Source: a virus | Virus record (IMG/VR): IMGVR_UViG_3300006802_010838 | Span: 1 to 20,183 of that record | DNA length: 20,183 nucleotides | Strand: one strand, 5' to 3' | Part shown: piece by piece, positions 3,290-20,183 of the stretch | Layout: every line of letters starts with the position of its first letter | How positions within the stretch are numbered: the first letter of the stretch is position 1 | The notes under the pieces: generated by a model | Database searches by the model: none | What the model saw: only the letters and a program-made list of their open reading frames with translations | What the model was told of the DNA's origin: nothing | Translations under genes and position numbers: made by a program

Positions 3290-4009
3290 TTAGTTAACAA
3301 TAAACCATGCAACAGTTGATGTATCAGTAGCATCTGCTGATGTGATAACAAAACTTGTTGATGCAGTTTTTGCAGTAACTGCCATGGCTTTAGCAACCGC
3401 AACAGTTCCTAAGGCCTGACATTGTAGAAAAATCATCGAGTTTGCTGTCACGGCAGTTGTAGCAACTGTAGCAGTTCCACCCACTAAAGCAACTGTACCA
3501 AAAGAGTTTGCTCCTGCTGTAGTTGTTGAACCTACGCTTGTTGAGCTAATCTTATTTCCAGCAGTTCCTAGAACAATGTTACCGTTAGTGGCTGTGATAT
3601 TGCCCAACGTTGCGGTAAGAGCGGTGGTAGTAGTCAAAGAGCCAGGTGCAGTTATTGCAGCAGGTAGGCTGAAGGTAGTTGTACCAGCGGTTTCAGCTTT
3701 AGATATTTGGTTCGCAGTGCCCGCAAGAACATAGTTGCCAGCTACTGGAGCGTTGCTGTTAATTGTGTTAATGTCGGCTGAGCTACCACCAACGACTGCC
3801 CATGTCGTACCACCTGCAAGACCTGTGCTTGCTACACATATGTATACACTAGATGCTGTCTTATTGACGTAAATATCGCCAATATTAGCATCACGCATGT
3901 TTGTAGAAGGTGCTCCAGCTTGTACAGTGACGTTTGACGGATTAGCGACTTGTGCTCCGCCAAAAAATGGAACTACCTTATTACCGCCTATACCACTATT
4001 AAAAGGCAT
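3290..4009 (-). CDS. Tail fibre-like protein, first gene of the fibre operon
   Basis: 239 aa, ATG 4009, the first gene downstream of the promoter element at 4041-4124; GGAG lies about 12 nt upstream. The N-terminus (MPFNSGIGGNKVVPFFGG) is followed by a segment resembling fibre head domains (GAPSTNMRDANIGDIYVNKTASSVYICVAS: the pattern of a short tag telling that a text-like beta strand is solvent exposed). The centre is a long low-complexity Thr/Ala/Gly/Asn beta repeat (TTTTALTATLGNITATNGNI and following). The C-terminus (STSFVITSADATDTSTVAWF) is a motif I associate with phage fibre C-termini. It is probably the shaft of a fibre or appendage. Leading the fibre operon suggests high or separately timed expression. 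Confidence 0.75.
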   Translation of the reverse strand: MPFNSGIGGNKVVPFFGGAQVANPSNVTVQAGAPSTNMRDANIGDIYVNKTASSVYICVASTGLAGGTTWAVVGGSSADINTINSNAPVAGNYVLAGTANQISKAETAGTTTFSLPAAITAPGSLTTTTALTATLGNITATNGNIVLGTAGNKISSTSVGSTTTAGANSFGTVALVGGTATVATTAVTANSMIFLQCQALGTVAVAKAMAVTAKTASTSFVITSADATDTSTVAWFIVN

Positions 4010-4040: not shown

Positions 4041-4124
4041 TAGTTAACACTATCGTATTATAAATGAGGAGAAACTGCAAAAAGAAAGATTGTATCTTGT
4101 GGTAAATTGTGGTTAATGTTAAGC
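4041..4124 (-). promoter_or_regulatory. Late promoter element, copy A (drives the tail-fibre operon)
   Basis: This non-coding 84-bp block aligns without gaps to 17216-17299, with about 60 identical positions. On the minus strand it carries TTGCAG (4080-4075), a 17-bp spacer and TACGAT (4057-4052), an upstream 11-mer TAACATTAACC (4121-4111) and a downstream TTAACTA (4047-4041). An overlapping TATAAT lies just upstream of TACGAT. The ATG of the first fibre gene is 32 bp beyond the block. A 13-bp palindrome, TCCTAgatTAGGA, sits at 4021-4033 in the leader. Conservation of both boxes with identical spacing in a second copy is the main support. Confidence 0.75.
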
Positions 4125-4154: not shown

Positions 4155-5642
4155 TTATTTGGTTTTTGATTGCTTGCTGGGTTTTTCTTTCTGCTCAGGA
4201 CGGATAGTTTCTATATCGAAATCTTTAGTTTCTTTATAAAAATCTGGTGCTTCTTCTTTAAGAGCTTCTCTAAGTTCTTGAAAAGACTTTTGTGCCAGAA
4301 TTATATTATTATTGTTTAAAGCATGAACAGTTTTTACACCCAAACTTTGATATCTTGGATTCATTAACATAGCGGTTGCGACTTGTTGAGCTCCCACAAA
4401 CTTGAGCACTCCTTTTAACATCCTATAATCTCCACTAAGAACACCCCAAATTGCTGCAGCACCTTTAACAATTGGTAAAACATTAGGTTGAGCAGGTGGT
4501 CTTAACATACGAGCAGTTCTATAGCGATTAGAAGCCAACTCATTAACTAATCTGAATTCCTCACCCAATTCTGGTGATATATGTTCTAAAGCTCTTCTTG
4601 TAACTTCTTGAAATCTTCCAATTATTCTATGGTTGTTTACTTCATGATTTACATGCTGATAAAACTGTATAAAATCTTCACCTAAACCCGGACTATTTAC
4701 TAAGTCTCTAAGGGAAGGTCGAATTTGTCTCCTAACAGATTCAGGCAAATTATGAAGCTCTTGCGCATAGTCCGTAAAAACCTGTCTCACATTATTTCTA
4801 GGTAAAGGTTGGGTAGCTCCAGGAGAATTTCTCAAAGAATCATATATTTGTCCTAATGCTTCACGGCTATCTTCTAATGCTTCTTGAGTTCGCTCACCTT
4901 TATTTGCAATTCTAGCAAGTGATCTTCTCCACCAATTTTGCTCTTTAACTGCCGGCACTAATTGTTGTTCTGTCATTCCCCTTGCACGACCAAAATTTAT
5001 TAATTCTTGTTCTCGAGGAGTTGATCCGACCAATCTTCTATTTAAGTTAGGAGCGGCAAATGCTAAAATTTCGGCAATTGTTTGAGCTCCAGGGCCAAAT
5101 CCTGCTTCTTCAGTTGCCTGTCCTAATCCTGCGGCTGCTAAAGTTCTTATGCCTTTGCCAACTATTCCTCCTGGGCCTAATAAAGCATTCGGTGCTATTC
5201 GTGTAGTTCTCTCAACTATCCTTTCTGGCAAACCTTCCTTAATGGGCAATTTATTTTCTAACTCTTGATCTAATTGCCCTTTTTCAAACTCATCCATAGG
5301 TTGAGGGGTTTGCTTCTCATCAGCAGTCAATGAGTCAAAACCGTATATTTTACCTATTTCCTTATCACCTTCTTCAAAAGCAGATGGCTTCATAGATTCT
5401 GCAATAAGATCACGAGTATCTGCTCCAAATCTTATTAATCCCCTACCAGCAGCATTTACAAGAGATTTGAATCTAGAGATATCTTGATATGTTGGAGCAT
5501 CCATAGAGGCTCTAGCGAAATCCATTTCTTCACTTGTTGGTGAATAGGTCGATTCCTGTTTATGTGAAACAGATCTAGAGGTAATAGGCCTGCTTTCTCG
5601 AGCAAAATCTAATTCGGATTCGGTAGGTGAATATTTACTCAT
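4155..5642 (-). CDS. Candidate internal virion / ejection protein
   Basis: 495 aa. Its ATG (5642) overlaps the stop of the preceding gene by 4 nt (ATGA). The N-terminus holds two copies of a 14-residue motif, YSPTESELDFARES (about 4-17) and YSPTSEEMDFARAS (about 33-46). A glycine/alanine-rich hydrophobic stretch follows near residues 150-200 (NALLGPGGIVGKGIRTLAAA, AEILAFAAPN). The rest is charged and helical, ending in a Lys/Glu-rich tail (EKPSKQSKTK). Large helical proteins after the tail tube genes are usually ejected internal proteins in podoviruses, and the amphipathic Gly-rich part could contact membrane. No lysozyme or transglycosylase motif is visible. It is the last gene before the fibre promoter; no terminator follows its stop. 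Confidence 0.6.
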   Translation of the reverse strand: MSKYSPTESELDFARESRPITSRSVSHKQESTYSPTSEEMDFARASMDAPTYQDISRFKSLVNAAGRGLIRFGADTRDLIAESMKPSAFEEGDKEIGKIYGFDSLTADEKQTPQPMDEFEKGQLDQELENKLPIKEGLPERIVERTTRIAPNALLGPGGIVGKGIRTLAAAGLGQATEEAGFGPGAQTIAEILAFAAPNLNRRLVGSTPREQELINFGRARGMTEQQLVPAVKEQNWWRRSLARIANKGERTQEALEDSREALGQIYDSLRNSPGATQPLPRNNVRQVFTDYAQELHNLPESVRRQIRPSLRDLVNSPGLGEDFIQFYQHVNHEVNNHRIIGRFQEVTRRALEHISPELGEEFRLVNELASNRYRTARMLRPPAQPNVLPIVKGAAAIWGVLSGDYRMLKGVLKFVGAQQVATAMLMNPRYQSLGVKTVHALNNNNIILAQKSFQELREALKEEAPDFYKETKDFDIETIRPEQKEKPSKQSKTK

Positions 5643-10754: not shown

Positions 10755-11140
10755 TATTTACCTATTGCAAACCAATATATAGGTTCTGGCGTAGATGTAG
10801 ACACCAATTTTATTTTAAAGCTCGAAGTCGAAACGGTTCCTGGAACTACATAAGAGGTTCTGGCCGTACCTCCATCTCCAGTGCTTGTGTTATGTTGTAT
10901 TTGAGTAATAATGCTGTAAACAGCTGTGGTATAGGCCTGATTGAAAGATACTGTTGTTCCAGCGGCACTATTCGCCACATTAGCTGAACCCCAATTAAGA
11001 ATAAGACCATTGGGCATTTTGTAATAGCCATTAGCAGAGTTCCCAGTAACACTAGCTAAATAGGCAAAGTTACTCAATATTGTTGCCTGGCCAGAGGATA
11101 TATTCTGTGTAGGCTGTGGTTGTGTTGCATCAAAACTCAT
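10754..11140 (-). CDS. Receptor-binding protein with gp53-like C-terminal domain
   Basis: 128 aa from ATG 11140, preferred over an upstream in-frame TTG at 11155 because GGAAGAGG is correctly placed for the ATG and the ATG overlaps the stop of the HNH gene (TAATG). The N-terminus (QPTQNISSGQATILSNF) is short. Residues about 38-128 match the plan of the gp53-like tail fibre C-terminal domain: GYYKMPNGLILNWGSA, then a VSFNQAYTT strand with a loop, TSSFKIKLVST, and the final IYWFAIGK. This domain forms trimeric tips in many phages. Here it stands almost alone, without a long shaft, between connector and nozzle genes. It may be a small tail-collar adhesin or head decoration; the exact location in the virion is unknown. 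Confidence 0.72.
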   Translation of the reverse strand: MSFDATQPQPTQNISSGQATILSNFAYLASVTGNSANGYYKMPNGLILNWGSANVANSAAGTTVSFNQAYTTAVYSIITQIQHNTSTGDGGTARTSYVVPGTVSTSSFKIKLVSTSTPEPIYWFAIGK

Positions 11141-11481
11141 TAGAACCTCTTCCAAGTTTGATTAGTTACTATTTTTTGTATTGTCATAAGGTCTACATTA
11201 AAACAGTTAGCAATATTTTTAAGAGTCATCCCTTTTTTTCTTTTTTCTCTAATTTCATCTACTTGATTCCAATTTAATTTTGCAGATCCATTTTTTTCAC
11301 CTGATGTATCTTGATGTCTATCTTTTTTAACACAATCGAGCATGTTTTCGCTTTGAGTTCCAAGAAAAAGATGATCAAGATTGATACACGCTCTATTATC
11401 ACAGGTATGACATACTTTTATTTCTTTACAGCAAAATTTTGGACTAGATGTTCTTGGCTTATTACAATGTAAACAAAACAT
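11140..11481 (-). CDS. HNH endonuclease (HNH_3-like) with C-terminal helix-turn-helix
   Basis: 113 aa, ATG 11481 starting 1 nt after the stop of the connector gene, behind GAGG. N-terminal Cys pairs (CLHC, CC) precede the nuclease core [20 protein letters not shown] (residues 23-42), with His25, Asn34 and His37 of the HNH_3-type active site in place. A helix-turn-helix ([20 protein letters not shown] to [10 protein letters not shown], about 68-111) follows, the usual DNA-recognition part. It is shorter than typical HNH_3 proteins at the N-terminus but not visibly broken. The gene is Lys- and AT-rich compared with its neighbours and sits exactly between connector and gp53-like genes with overlapping junctions, so it looks like a recently inserted free-standing homing endonuclease that keeps the operon coupled. 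Confidence 0.83.
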
Positions 11482-13470: not shown

Positions 13471-13502
13471 AAAAAAAGGACGGGGACATAAAGTCCCCAC
13501 CC
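13471..13502 (-). terminator. Intrinsic terminator after the capsid/decoration genes
   Basis: On the minus strand GGGTGGGGAC (13502-13493) pairs with GTCCCCGTCC (13487-13478) through ten base pairs, two of them G-U in RNA. The loop is TTTAT and seven T residues follow immediately (13477-13471). This is a textbook rho-independent terminator, 10 nt beyond the stop of the 13512-14321 gene. It would cap an abundant scaffold-capsid-decoration message and reduce expression of the tail genes beyond. Confidence 0.9.
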
Positions 13503-13511
13503 TTTAGTTTT

Positions 13512-14331: not shown

Positions 14332-15276
14332 TTATAGTCTTAGCGTTGATATAATTCTTGTGATCCAGTTATCGTTTAAGATTCTGGTCGCAAAAGGATA
14401 TTTATAACCCACTGTACCACGCTGGTTAAGCGGGTCAGCTGTTCCACTAGCACCTAGCGGTTTGACGATAAACTCGGCTTCTTTCGCACCAAGTCTTACA
14501 ACGCCATATGCCTCTTGTCCAAGCATAAAGCTTGAATAAATAGGCGTTGCAGCTCCGTTATTGTAGCCGTTTGTATTTAGCAGCCATCGGCAGTTACGGG
14601 TTGATCCCCATTCTGCTTCTAGTGCATTCATTGGGTTTGGATAGTTAGCAACAGAAATGAAGCTAGATACAGCCTCTAGATCTTTTTGCATATCTACCGA
14701 CATAAAACCCCAATATGATGCACGTACAGGCGCTGTGCCAAACTTATTTTCGCCTGGTAGCGGGTTTGTCATAAGACGAGCGTTACCTTGACGAAGAGCA
14801 ACAATAGCAGTTTGGATATCTGTATCTGTGATCTCTGTAGGTGTTCCGCCGTTTACACCTGCTGTACAAGCAATAGTCGAAGCAGTCGAAACCATCATGT
14901 CACGGATTAGCGTGTCGATTGTCAACCCTAATTGTAAACTTAAAACTTTAGTTGCTTCATTAAGCACCCTATCTTGGACCACGAACTGAACTTGGTCTGA
15001 TATAGTGACGTAGTCGCCATACCAGCTGATAGCTGCTTTAAAGTCTGTTCTTGAAAGTTGTGAGCCGGCTGGAGTTTGTCCATCGGTTAGTGGGATAGTT
15101 GCTGCTGCTAGGGTAGAATATCTTGCAAAAACCATCTGATCGCCGGAATTAAGCGGAATTTGACGCTTTTGGGCGAACAGATCGTAGATGAAGTATGGTC
15201 TAGCTAGAGTCAACAACATCCTATCGAAATAGGTACGAACTTCTGGAGGAAGTTGCGTAAGTGTTGTAATTGCCAT
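14332..15276 (-). CDS. Major capsid protein, N4-gp56 family
   Basis: 314 aa, ATG 15276. The sequence is recognisable as an HK97-fold capsid protein of the N4-gp56 family: PPEVRTYFDRMLLTLARPYF and IYDLFAQKRQIPLNSGDQMV at the N-arm, TIPLTDGQTPAGSQLSRTDF, the conserved WYGDYVTISDQVQFVVQDRV, then ATKVLSLQLGLTIDTLIRDM, a P-domain with YWGFMSVDMQKDLEAV, and the A-domain end (GQEAYGVVRLGAKEAEFIVK, PFATRILNDNWITRIISTLR). Length is somewhat shorter than N4 gp56 (about 400) but normal for podoviral members of this family. The scaffold gene is 17 nt upstream. It assembles the icosahedral head. No cleavage protease gene is visible in the window. Confidence 0.93.
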   Translation of the reverse strand: MAITTLTQLPPEVRTYFDRMLLTLARPYFIYDLFAQKRQIPLNSGDQMVFARYSTLAAATIPLTDGQTPAGSQLSRTDFKAAISWYGDYVTISDQVQFVVQDRVLNEATKVLSLQLGLTIDTLIRDMMVSTASTIACTAGVNGGTPTEITDTDIQTAIVALRQGNARLMTNPLPGENKFGTAPVRASYWGFMSVDMQKDLEAVSSFISVANYPNPMNALEAEWGSTRNCRWLLNTNGYNNGAATPIYSSFMLGQEAYGVVRLGAKEAEFIVKPLGASGTADPLNQRGTVGYKYPFATRILNDNWITRIISTLRL

Positions 15277-16893: not shown

Positions 16894-17105
16894 TATTTCA
16901 TCTCTTTCCAAGGCTGTTTTTGTGGCCTCATGGGAGTATTCTTATACTTATCATCGATTAAGCCTTGCATGCCGTTAGGATGCCCTGCAGGAGGCACTTC
17001 ACCTTCATAGCCATAAGGATATTCATCCATAGCAACTCTGCGATCTAATTGCCTTGAAAATGAATCTGAAGGGCCAAAGCCTTGATCATAAAAATTAAAG
17101 CTCAT
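16893..17105 (-). CDS. Small hypothetical phage protein (70 aa)
   Basis: 70 aa, ATG 17105 with AGAGGTAGATA upstream, coupled to a 24-aa reading frame by TAATG. The sequence is rich in Tyr, Gly, Pro, Asp and Arg (NFYDQGFGPSDSFSRQLDRR, EYPYGYEGEVPPAGHPNGMQ) and ends in a Pro/Gln/Lys tail (RPQKQPWKEMK). It looks disordered and has no hydrophobic core, membrane helix or catalytic motif. It is near the promoter, so among the first late products. Function unknown. Confidence 0.6.
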   Translation of the reverse strand: MSFNFYDQGFGPSDSFSRQLDRRVAMDEYPYGYEGEVPPAGHPNGMQGLIDDKYKNTPMRPQKQPWKEMK

Positions 17106-17179
17106 TATCTACCTCTAGGTGCGCCAGGAGATGGCTTAGGTTTAGGTTGTGATGGTTGACCAGGTTTAGGAAATCCCAT
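17105..17179 (-). CDS. Possible leader peptide gene, Pro-rich (24 aa)
   Basis: 24 aa, ATG 17179 behind TGAGGTTC, the first possible translated frame after the late promoter (-10 at 17232-17227). Ten of its residues are proline or lysine (GQPSQPKPKPSPGAPRGR makes most of it). Its TAA overlaps the next ATG (TAATG). It may act mainly as a translational leader for the 70-aa gene, or make a short basic peptide. The good ribosome site and coupling support it; the tiny size limits certainty. Confidence 0.42.
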   Translation of the reverse strand: MGFPKPGQPSQPKPKPSPGAPRGR

Positions 17180-17212: not shown

Positions 17213-17228
17213 AACTAGTTAATACAAT
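17202..17228 (+). promoter_or_regulatory. Possible promoter for the plus-strand helicase operon
   Basis: TTGATA (17202-17207) and TACAAT (17223-17228) are good box sequences, but only 15 bp apart, less than the usual 16-18. The helicase start is about 75 bp downstream. No better pair was found before 17306. It overlaps the palindrome at 17194-17212 and the late promoter on the other strand. Confidence 0.35.
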
Positions 17229-17299
17229 CGTATGTTTTATGACAAGAAAAAGCAAAAATAACGCTTGTGATTAAATGTATGTTGCGGTTAATGTTATGC
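17216..17299 (-). promoter_or_regulatory. Late promoter element, copy B (drives the capsid operon)
   Basis: On the minus strand: TTGCTT (17255-17250), 17-bp spacer, TACGAT (17232-17227), upstream 11-mer TAACATTAACC (17296-17286) about 30 bp before the -35, and downstream TTAACTA (17222-17216). The whole block matches 4041-4124 without gaps at about 60 of 84 positions. The 11-mer sits near -70, where an activator could contact polymerase. Part of the block would be coding if the helicase began at GTG 17267, so its conservation also favours the later helicase start at 17306. Confidence 0.75.
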
Positions 17300-19473: not shown

Positions 19474-19716
19474 ATGACTGAATGGTTTTCGTTATATAGA
19501 AAATATCCTTCTGAAGATGAGTATGTTCTATGGTATATACCTTATCTAAATAGAAAAAATCAATTCTTTATTGGTAAGTTTGTAACCAGAAAATTTAGAG
19601 AAAATTATAATATAATTGTTACTGTAACACCTGATGGTGAATTGTCAGAATTGACTAATAGTTCTGTGAATAAACTATTTTGGTGCAGACTTCCAGAATA
19701 TGTTGAGGAATCATGA
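19474..19716 (+). CDS. DUF551-like small protein, diverged copy 1
   Basis: 80 aa from ATG 19474 (MTEWFSLYRKYP); TTG or GTG codons two and one positions earlier are possible but GGGGG is spaced well for the ATG. The N-terminus MTEW and the C-terminal FWCRLPE match the ends of DUF551 proteins (MTEWISV...HWxxLP), while the middle (YVLWYIPYLNRKNQFFIGKF) differs. It is the first of four tandem relatives. DUF551 proteins are short phage and prophage accessory proteins without known function. It overlaps copy 2 by 4 nt (ATGA). Confidence 0.62.
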   Translation: MTEWFSLYRKYPSEDEYVLWYIPYLNRKNQFFIGKFVTRKFRENYNIIVTVTPDGELSELTNSSVNKLFWCRLPEYVEES

Positions 19717-19907
19717 CAGAATGGATTAGCGTTAAAGATAGACTTCCAAATGAAAATCAATCAATAGCATTTAAAACTTCTAGATATGAATTTCCTTTAG
19801 CTGGTTATTACAGGGAAAATGAATTTAGTGAAGGAACAGGAAATTTATATATTCATCAATCGGAAGTGATTTATTGGATGCCATTACCAATGAGCCCAAA
19901 TGACTGA
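19713..19907 (+). CDS. DUF551 protein, copy 2
   Basis: 64 aa, ATG 19713. It shows the classic DUF551 layout: MTEWISVKDRLPNENQS at the start, a central glycine/tyrosine strand (LAGYYRENEF), and the ending VIYWMPLPMSP. Length is typical for the family. Start and stop overlap with neighbours: ATGA at the front and ATGACTGA, eight bases, at the back, where the last codons Asn-Asp-stop overlap the Met-Thr-Glu start of copy 3. Function of the family is unknown. Confidence 0.82.
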   Translation: MTEWISVKDRLPNENQSIAFKTSRYEFPLAGYYRENEFSEGTGNLYIHQSEVIYWMPLPMSPND

Positions 19908-20088
19908 ATGGATTAGCGTTAAGAATGAAACACCTAAAAAGACTAGTCGATACCTTACTTTTCATGATAATCTTATTTGCATAAAACTATTTCATTATGA
20001 AGAAAGAAATTTCCATGACGAATATGGCCATCGCTGTTCAAACAATATCACCCATTGGGCAGAATTACCGGAGCCGCCTCATGACTGA
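19900..20088 (+). CDS. DUF551 protein, copy 3
   Basis: 62 aa, ATG 19900, reading MTEWISVKNETPKKTSRY at the start and ITHWAELPEPPHD at the end, the conserved DUF551 termini. The middle (ICIKLFHYEERNFHDEYGHR) is unlike copy 2. Its first codons overlap the end of copy 2 by eight bases and its last codons overlap copy 4 in the same way. It therefore depends on translational coupling. Function unknown; a role as an accessory phage protein is all that can be said. Confidence 0.82.
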   Translation: MTEWISVKNETPKKTSRYLTFHDNLICIKLFHYEERNFHDEYGHRCSNNITHWAELPEPPHD

Positions 20089-20183
20089 ATGGATTAAGTG
20101 TAGCGATAGATTGCCTGAAGAATTTACTGCCGTTCTTGTCTATTTCAAAACTGGTGGCATAACTGTATGTGAACTTAGAGAAA
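20081..20183 (+). CDS. DUF551 protein, copy 4 (runs off the right edge)
   Basis: ATG 20081 opens a frame to the end of the window, about 34 residues: MTEWIKCSDRLPEEFTAVLV, followed by YFKTGGITVCELRE. The N-terminus is that of DUF551 (W, S/C, DRLP). It overlaps copy 3 by eight bases (ATGACTGA). The C-terminus with the HWxxLP motif is outside the window. Confidence 0.78.
   Translation, partial: MTEWIKCSDRLPEEFTAVLVYFKTGGITVCELRE

Follow-up and report, generated by a model that had tools for sequence, protein, structure and literature searches.

Phage P2 has four late operons, which carry a TGT-N12-ACA box and respond to the activator Ogr (PMC3931495). E. coli CRP activates transcription strongly from sites centred at -71.5 or -72.5, and it is a class II activator when its site is centred at -41.5 (PMC6301791). 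A late-operon switch that works through a shared box is a known way of working, and what is new here is the phage group. The late gene control of these uncultured phages appears to be undescribed, and our literature search for a late promoter of the kind reported below found nothing specific.

The stretch of DNA that we analysed (the window) makes up the whole of a 20,183-base IMG/VR record, a 20.2-kb contig that is probably a fragment. Its source phage is podovirus-like and belongs to an undescribed group of uncultured phages, which we refer to as soil phages. By the major capsid protein (MCP), the nearest named and annotated phages are the Bacillus phages Page, Pony and Pascal and the Paenibacillus phage API480, at 26–30% identity. 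The window gave no megablast match to annotated phages and no Rfam match, and an MCP-based search for prophage copies in bacterial genomes found none. Relatives were gathered by tblastn-confirmed scans that returned 46, 80, 68 and 7 loci. The genome of G001, a close relative, is about 40 kb long and encodes a P22-type portal, an O-like replication protein, Erf, RusA and TerL.

Two paired leader elements in the window

The elements under study and the genes around them are as follows, in window coordinates.

Fibre side:
4041–4124, minus strand: fibre/spike-operon leader element of 84 bp (box, -35, -10 and initial transcribed bases), 60 of 84 positions identical to 17216–17299
4111–4121, minus strand: box TAACATTAACC (extended TTAACATTAACC), putative activator site centred at about -72, found from the sequence and in portal, fibre and capsid leaders of relatives
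4075–4080, minus strand: -35-like TTGCAG, with TTGCAC at equal spacing in the G005 fibre leader
4052–4057, minus strand: -10-like TACGAT, 17 bp after TTGCAG, with +1 predicted near 4045 (-10 scoring)
4041–4047, minus strand: TTAACTA, initial transcribed region, identical in both blocks
3290–4009, minus strand: first ORF of the fibre unit, with a C-terminal K1-lyase_C tail-spike domain

Capsid side:
17216–17299, minus strand: capsid-operon leader element of 84 bp, 60 of 84 positions identical to the fibre block, its core kept in the capsid leaders of five relatives
17286–17296, minus strand: box TAACATTAACC (extended ATAACATTAACC), putative activator site centred at about -72
17250–17255, minus strand: -35-like TTGCTT
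17227–17232, minus strand: -10-like TACGAT, 17 bp after TTGCTT, with +1 predicted near 17220 (-10 scoring)
17216–17222, minus strand: TTAACTA, initial transcribed region, identical in both blocks
17105–17179, minus strand: 24-codon ORF MGFPKPGQPSQPKPKPSPGAPRGR that opens the capsid unit, with similar ORFs in relatives
14332–15276, minus strand: MCP gene of the capsid unit, matching the phrog_1357 major head protein (E 2.3e-41)
13475–13505, minus strand: intrinsic-terminator-like hairpin inside the capsid unit, 13 pairs followed by a T-run

The initial annotation had described an ungapped match of about 60 positions between the two blocks, and the count is exactly 60 of 84, compared with maxima of 45–49 identities per 84 in 60 block-wise dinucleotide shuffles of the window. 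This is the best non-coding 84-base pair in the window, and the single other pair at this level (10062/10359, score 61) lies inside coding repeats. The identities cluster at the box, the -35, the -10 and the +1, and the flanks fall to background similarity, just as the annotation had reported. The TTGC-type -35, the 17-bp spacing, TACGAT, the identical 11-mer and TTAACTA are likewise all present in register. The 11-mer TAACATTAACC is the longest identical string common to the blocks and occurs twice in the 20.2-kb record, both times within them, where about 0.02 occurrences would be expected.

We infer from sequence that the blocks are promoters. TTGCAG/TTGCTT-17-TACGAT has a moderate sigma-70 score and was not among the sites listed by a consensus promoter scan, and promoter-like hexamers are no commoner in the window than in shuffles. 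TACGAT is the top-scoring -10 of the capsid leader. When the fibre leader is scored alone, a TATAAT 5 bp upstream and a TACAAT at offset 28 outscore it, but an offset of 65 from the box gives the best mean -10 score across the two window leaders and the fibre leader of the relative G005. A reversed box in TACGATAGTGTTAAC was considered and rejected, as its score did not rise above the genome background.

The annotation's assignment of the first block to fibre genes is borne out, since the 3290–4009 ORF is followed in the same gene series by an ORF with a C1q domain, and it is reasonable to speak of fibre/spike genes. The second block precedes the 24-codon ORF, g16893, and then a scaffold-like gene and the MCP gene. 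This block sits between divergent genes, a setting that the annotation does not mention, and its box lies 13 bp from the start codon of a helicase (17309, plus strand). The division of the minus-strand series into two transcription units is unproven. Between the gene at 4155 and the fibre promoter we found nothing that resembles a terminator, and transcription of the capsid unit may therefore run on into the fibre genes. The strong hairpin at 13475–13505 lies between the second gene after the MCP gene and the next late gene, and may set a high ratio of capsid to tail proteins; it has a counterpart in L009 (9149–9168), and none was found in L004 or L011.

Some other features of these genomes deserve mention in their own right. 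The 24-codon ORF is rich in proline and lysine, and close relatives have similar ones (KPGQP...APG..RGR). Two HNH endonuclease-like ORFs lie within the late gene series (239–754 and 11140–11481, minus strand), the second with a relative in L004, L009, L015 and L020. The MCP gene is intact in the window; in seven relatives (L005, L007, L008, L013, L018, G055 and G056) it is interrupted near residues 56/58 and 87/93 by hundreds of bases of extra DNA, probably introns or inteins with homing endonucleases. At the far end of the window (19713–20182, plus strand) there is a row of small ORFs with MTEWISVKDRLP-like starts at 19713, 19900 and about 20080; they are apparently a tandem DUF551-like family, and DUF551 also matches two G001 proteins.

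The box in late leaders of related phages

Synteny maps of the relatives show virion-gene leaders at three places: upstream of the portal gene, upstream of the small first gene of the capsid-tail operon and upstream of the first fibre gene. The initial annotation described two late leaders; relatives have three, the portal leader included. We ranked the upstream regions of all genes of each relative by the window 12-mer TTAACATTAACC. The portal leader came first in G005 (57 genes), G014 (42 genes) and L225 (27 genes), and in G003 the first three places among 76 genes went to the fibre, portal and capsid leaders, the third of which ties in score with other genes. No late leader was prominent in this ranking in G001, L223, G007 or the outer genomes.

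The portal leaders carry TTAACATTATC followed by an extended -10, TGnTACACT, 35–36 bp from the start of the box, which places the box centre at about -42. A box 35–36 bp before the -10 is found in the portal leaders of G001, G005, G014, L225 and G007, and in the capsid and fibre leaders of G003. Being homologous, the portal leaders of relatives provide only partly independent cases. Both window leaders have a longer distance, 65 bp, and so does the G005 fibre leader, which independently keeps TTGCAC-17-TATAAA in the same place as the window's TTGC-17-(-10). When the window fibre 80-mer was searched in G005, this leader was the best of 69,054 positions. Two leaders have other spacings, 21 bp in the G003 portal leader and 18 bp in the G007 fibre leader. 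At least two late operons of one phage thus share the box at a fixed distance from the promoter both in the window (capsid and fibre, 65 bp) and in G003 (capsid and fibre, 35 bp). Separately, the end of a minus-strand gene in G005 contains a 27-base stretch (33607–33635), about 22 bases of which match the window's fibre box region; no plus-strand gene follows it.

The box recurs before the late operons of relatives, though not in every capsid leader. In the close group, TTTTTCTTG and TATTWACTAG, with 17 variable bases between them, are conserved in the capsid leaders, several of which lack the TTGC-17-TACGAT arrangement: TACGAT is replaced by TAAGAT, TGAGAT, TTATTT, GAAATT or TGCGTT. Four close relatives (G014, L225, L223 and G005) have no clear box in their capsid leaders and only a degenerate TACGAT there, and the G001 capsid leader has a displaced, box-like CATTAACC. 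We considered CATTAACC of L004 as the window's box moved one helical turn closer, and dropped the idea because it aligns better with a second segment of the fibre block. A profile built from the two 84-bp blocks found no full copies in the first 46 relatives beyond a weak match at the L009 capsid leader. The pattern proposed in the initial annotation, the 11-mer followed by 30 bp, TTGC, 17 bp and TACGAT, is therefore not a family-wide signature. Its box does occur in the late leaders of relatives, but a scan of viral_contigs for the exact, related pattern of box plus promoter found none. In the main, the results bear out the annotation's reading of late promoters that share an activator box; its distinct promoter class, as written, does not hold across the family.

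A leader resembles the other leaders of its own genome more closely than it does those of other genomes (portal-capsid, p = 0.0002; portal-fibre, p = 0.005; capsid-fibre, p = 0.0004). Pooling the comparisons gives p = 0.0002, a value that is the same when the window, G009 and G003 are left out, and the likeness holds in the close group without the window (p = 0.005) and in the outer group without G003 (p = 0.017). In a stricter test on -10-aligned leaders, only the window, G003 and G006 reached significance. The co-variation suggests that metagenomic phage sequence is enough to recognise late regulatory boxes.

A candidate activator and competing explanations

Matching promoters in the window, together with a box that recurs before the portal, capsid or fibre genes of relatives, point to what is probably one phage-specific virion-gene switch. 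On balance we think it probable that the two blocks are late promoters of one such regulon, driven through the box by a trans-acting protein. In this mechanism, host RNA polymerase would read both 84-bp promoters, and a trans-acting factor, encoded most likely by the phage and synthesised ahead of the late phase, would bind the box TTAACATTAAC centred near -72. The bound factor would recruit the polymerase to the weak TTGC-17-TACGAT promoter in a class I-like manner, and the same box at about -42 beside the extended -10 of the relatives' portal operon would act in a class II-like manner. That the factor acts positively, as an activator rather than a repressor, is suggested by the box lying upstream of the -10 in the portal leaders of close relatives, which is the place of an activator.

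The annotation had also called for a phage-encoded DNA-binding activator. A candidate exists in relatives, but its gene is not on the 20-kb window contig. A protein of 134–161 residues with two HTH_17 domains is encoded upstream of or adjoining rusA in 8 of 13 core genomes; in G001 its gene lies at 24452–24856. Its AlphaFold2 model (pLDDT 84) consists of two winged-HTH modules with the fold of BldC, excisionases and SoxR, and a module superposes on PDB 6ama and 4j2n with TMt 0.7–0.8 over about 50 residues. The structure comparison gave no whole-chain match with E below 0.001, and a PDB sequence search with the protein gave no meaningful match. Judged by position, predicted fold and conservation, it is the best candidate activator. 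Many genomes carry it and lack the window-type box. A tentative and rather doubtful extension is that a rapidly diverging pair of HTH_17 activator and box controls the portal, capsid and fibre operons, one protein acting with different strengths from about -42 at the portal and about -72 at the capsid and fibre operons.

The main rival to a positively acting factor, chiefly for the outer relatives, is that repressor operators keep the late promoters silent early, with the -10/+1 region as the main site. The outer relatives have another element, TGTAWAATTCAAATTTGAAAGTTAACAC, which is found at as many as three leaders in a genome. Many of these relatives carry a dyad-symmetric TGTATAATTCAAATTTGGTTTATACA-like element that spans -10 to about +15 and scores on both strands. 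In G002, G004, G008, G009 and G010 it measures 26–28 bp, covers the -10 and +1 of the portal, capsid and fibre leaders with as many as three occurrences in a genome, and looks like an operator. G001 has a perfect palindrome, ATTTACTAGTAAAT, at the -10/+1 region, and in outer genomes a small XRE-like HTH gene precedes the tandem HTH gene. The window argues otherwise: it is the upstream box that forms the longest stretch of identity, and in the fibre leader TTAACTA belongs to no good dyad. With the upstream position of the box in close relatives' portal leaders also against it, we regard repression as unlikely for the window.

Host-regulated sigma-70 promoters, with the box as the site of a host regulator, are a distinctly less probable explanation. 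The promoters do resemble sigma-70 sites, and a search for single-subunit, T7-like RNA polymerases (PF00940) found them in 0 of 14 relatives, a weak point since the control genomes were likewise silent. But the boxes change from phage to phage jointly across leaders, as in G006, whose three leaders all carry a different box, TTAGTTAT, 21 bp upstream of the -10, and this fits phage-encoded factors better than a host regulator. We had also noted a resemblance of TAATACGA to a T7 promoter and dropped it, since the sequence lacks the CACTATAG part and the search turned up no polymerase.

If recombination had recently duplicated one leader, the identity would reflect descent, with no shared regulator, and this would account for the ungapped alignment over 84 bp and for so strong a pairing being found only in the window phage. 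Such a duplication is nonetheless very improbable, as the matches are concentrated at the promoter parts and box rather than spread into the flanks, and box and promoter recur in the late leaders of other phages. Chance likeness of two AT-rich intergenic regions, in a sequence where promoter-like hexamers reach only shuffled frequencies, is refuted by the shuffle test and by the recurrence in relatives.

Comparison with known late-gene switches

The analysis of the 84-bp element offers a box that can be tested directly, predicted 5' ends and a candidate activator. If the activator mechanism is correct, TTAACATTA should lie about 35 or 65 bp before the -10 upstream of the phage's own portal gene.

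The arrangement resembles that of P2 and Ogr in that a single phage has a short upstream box common to several of its late operons. In P2 this box is tied to a small phage-encoded activator, whereas here the tandem HTH_17 protein is a candidate only. The window box TTAACATTAAC lacks the TGT-N12-ACA dyad of the P2 Ogr/delta family, which is absent from TAACATTAACC, and the candidate is a tandem HTH_17 protein rather than a zinc finger, so the system is not a member of the P2 Ogr family. The box also stands at two different distances here. Its geometry is shared with the class I and class II promoters of E. coli CRP, where the sites are likewise centred near -42 or near -72, some 30 bp from each other; the box is a different one and host CRP is not implied. 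The candidate module shares its fold with the MerR-like HTH_17 proteins of the BldC and excisionase type, from which the candidate differs in holding two such modules per chain.
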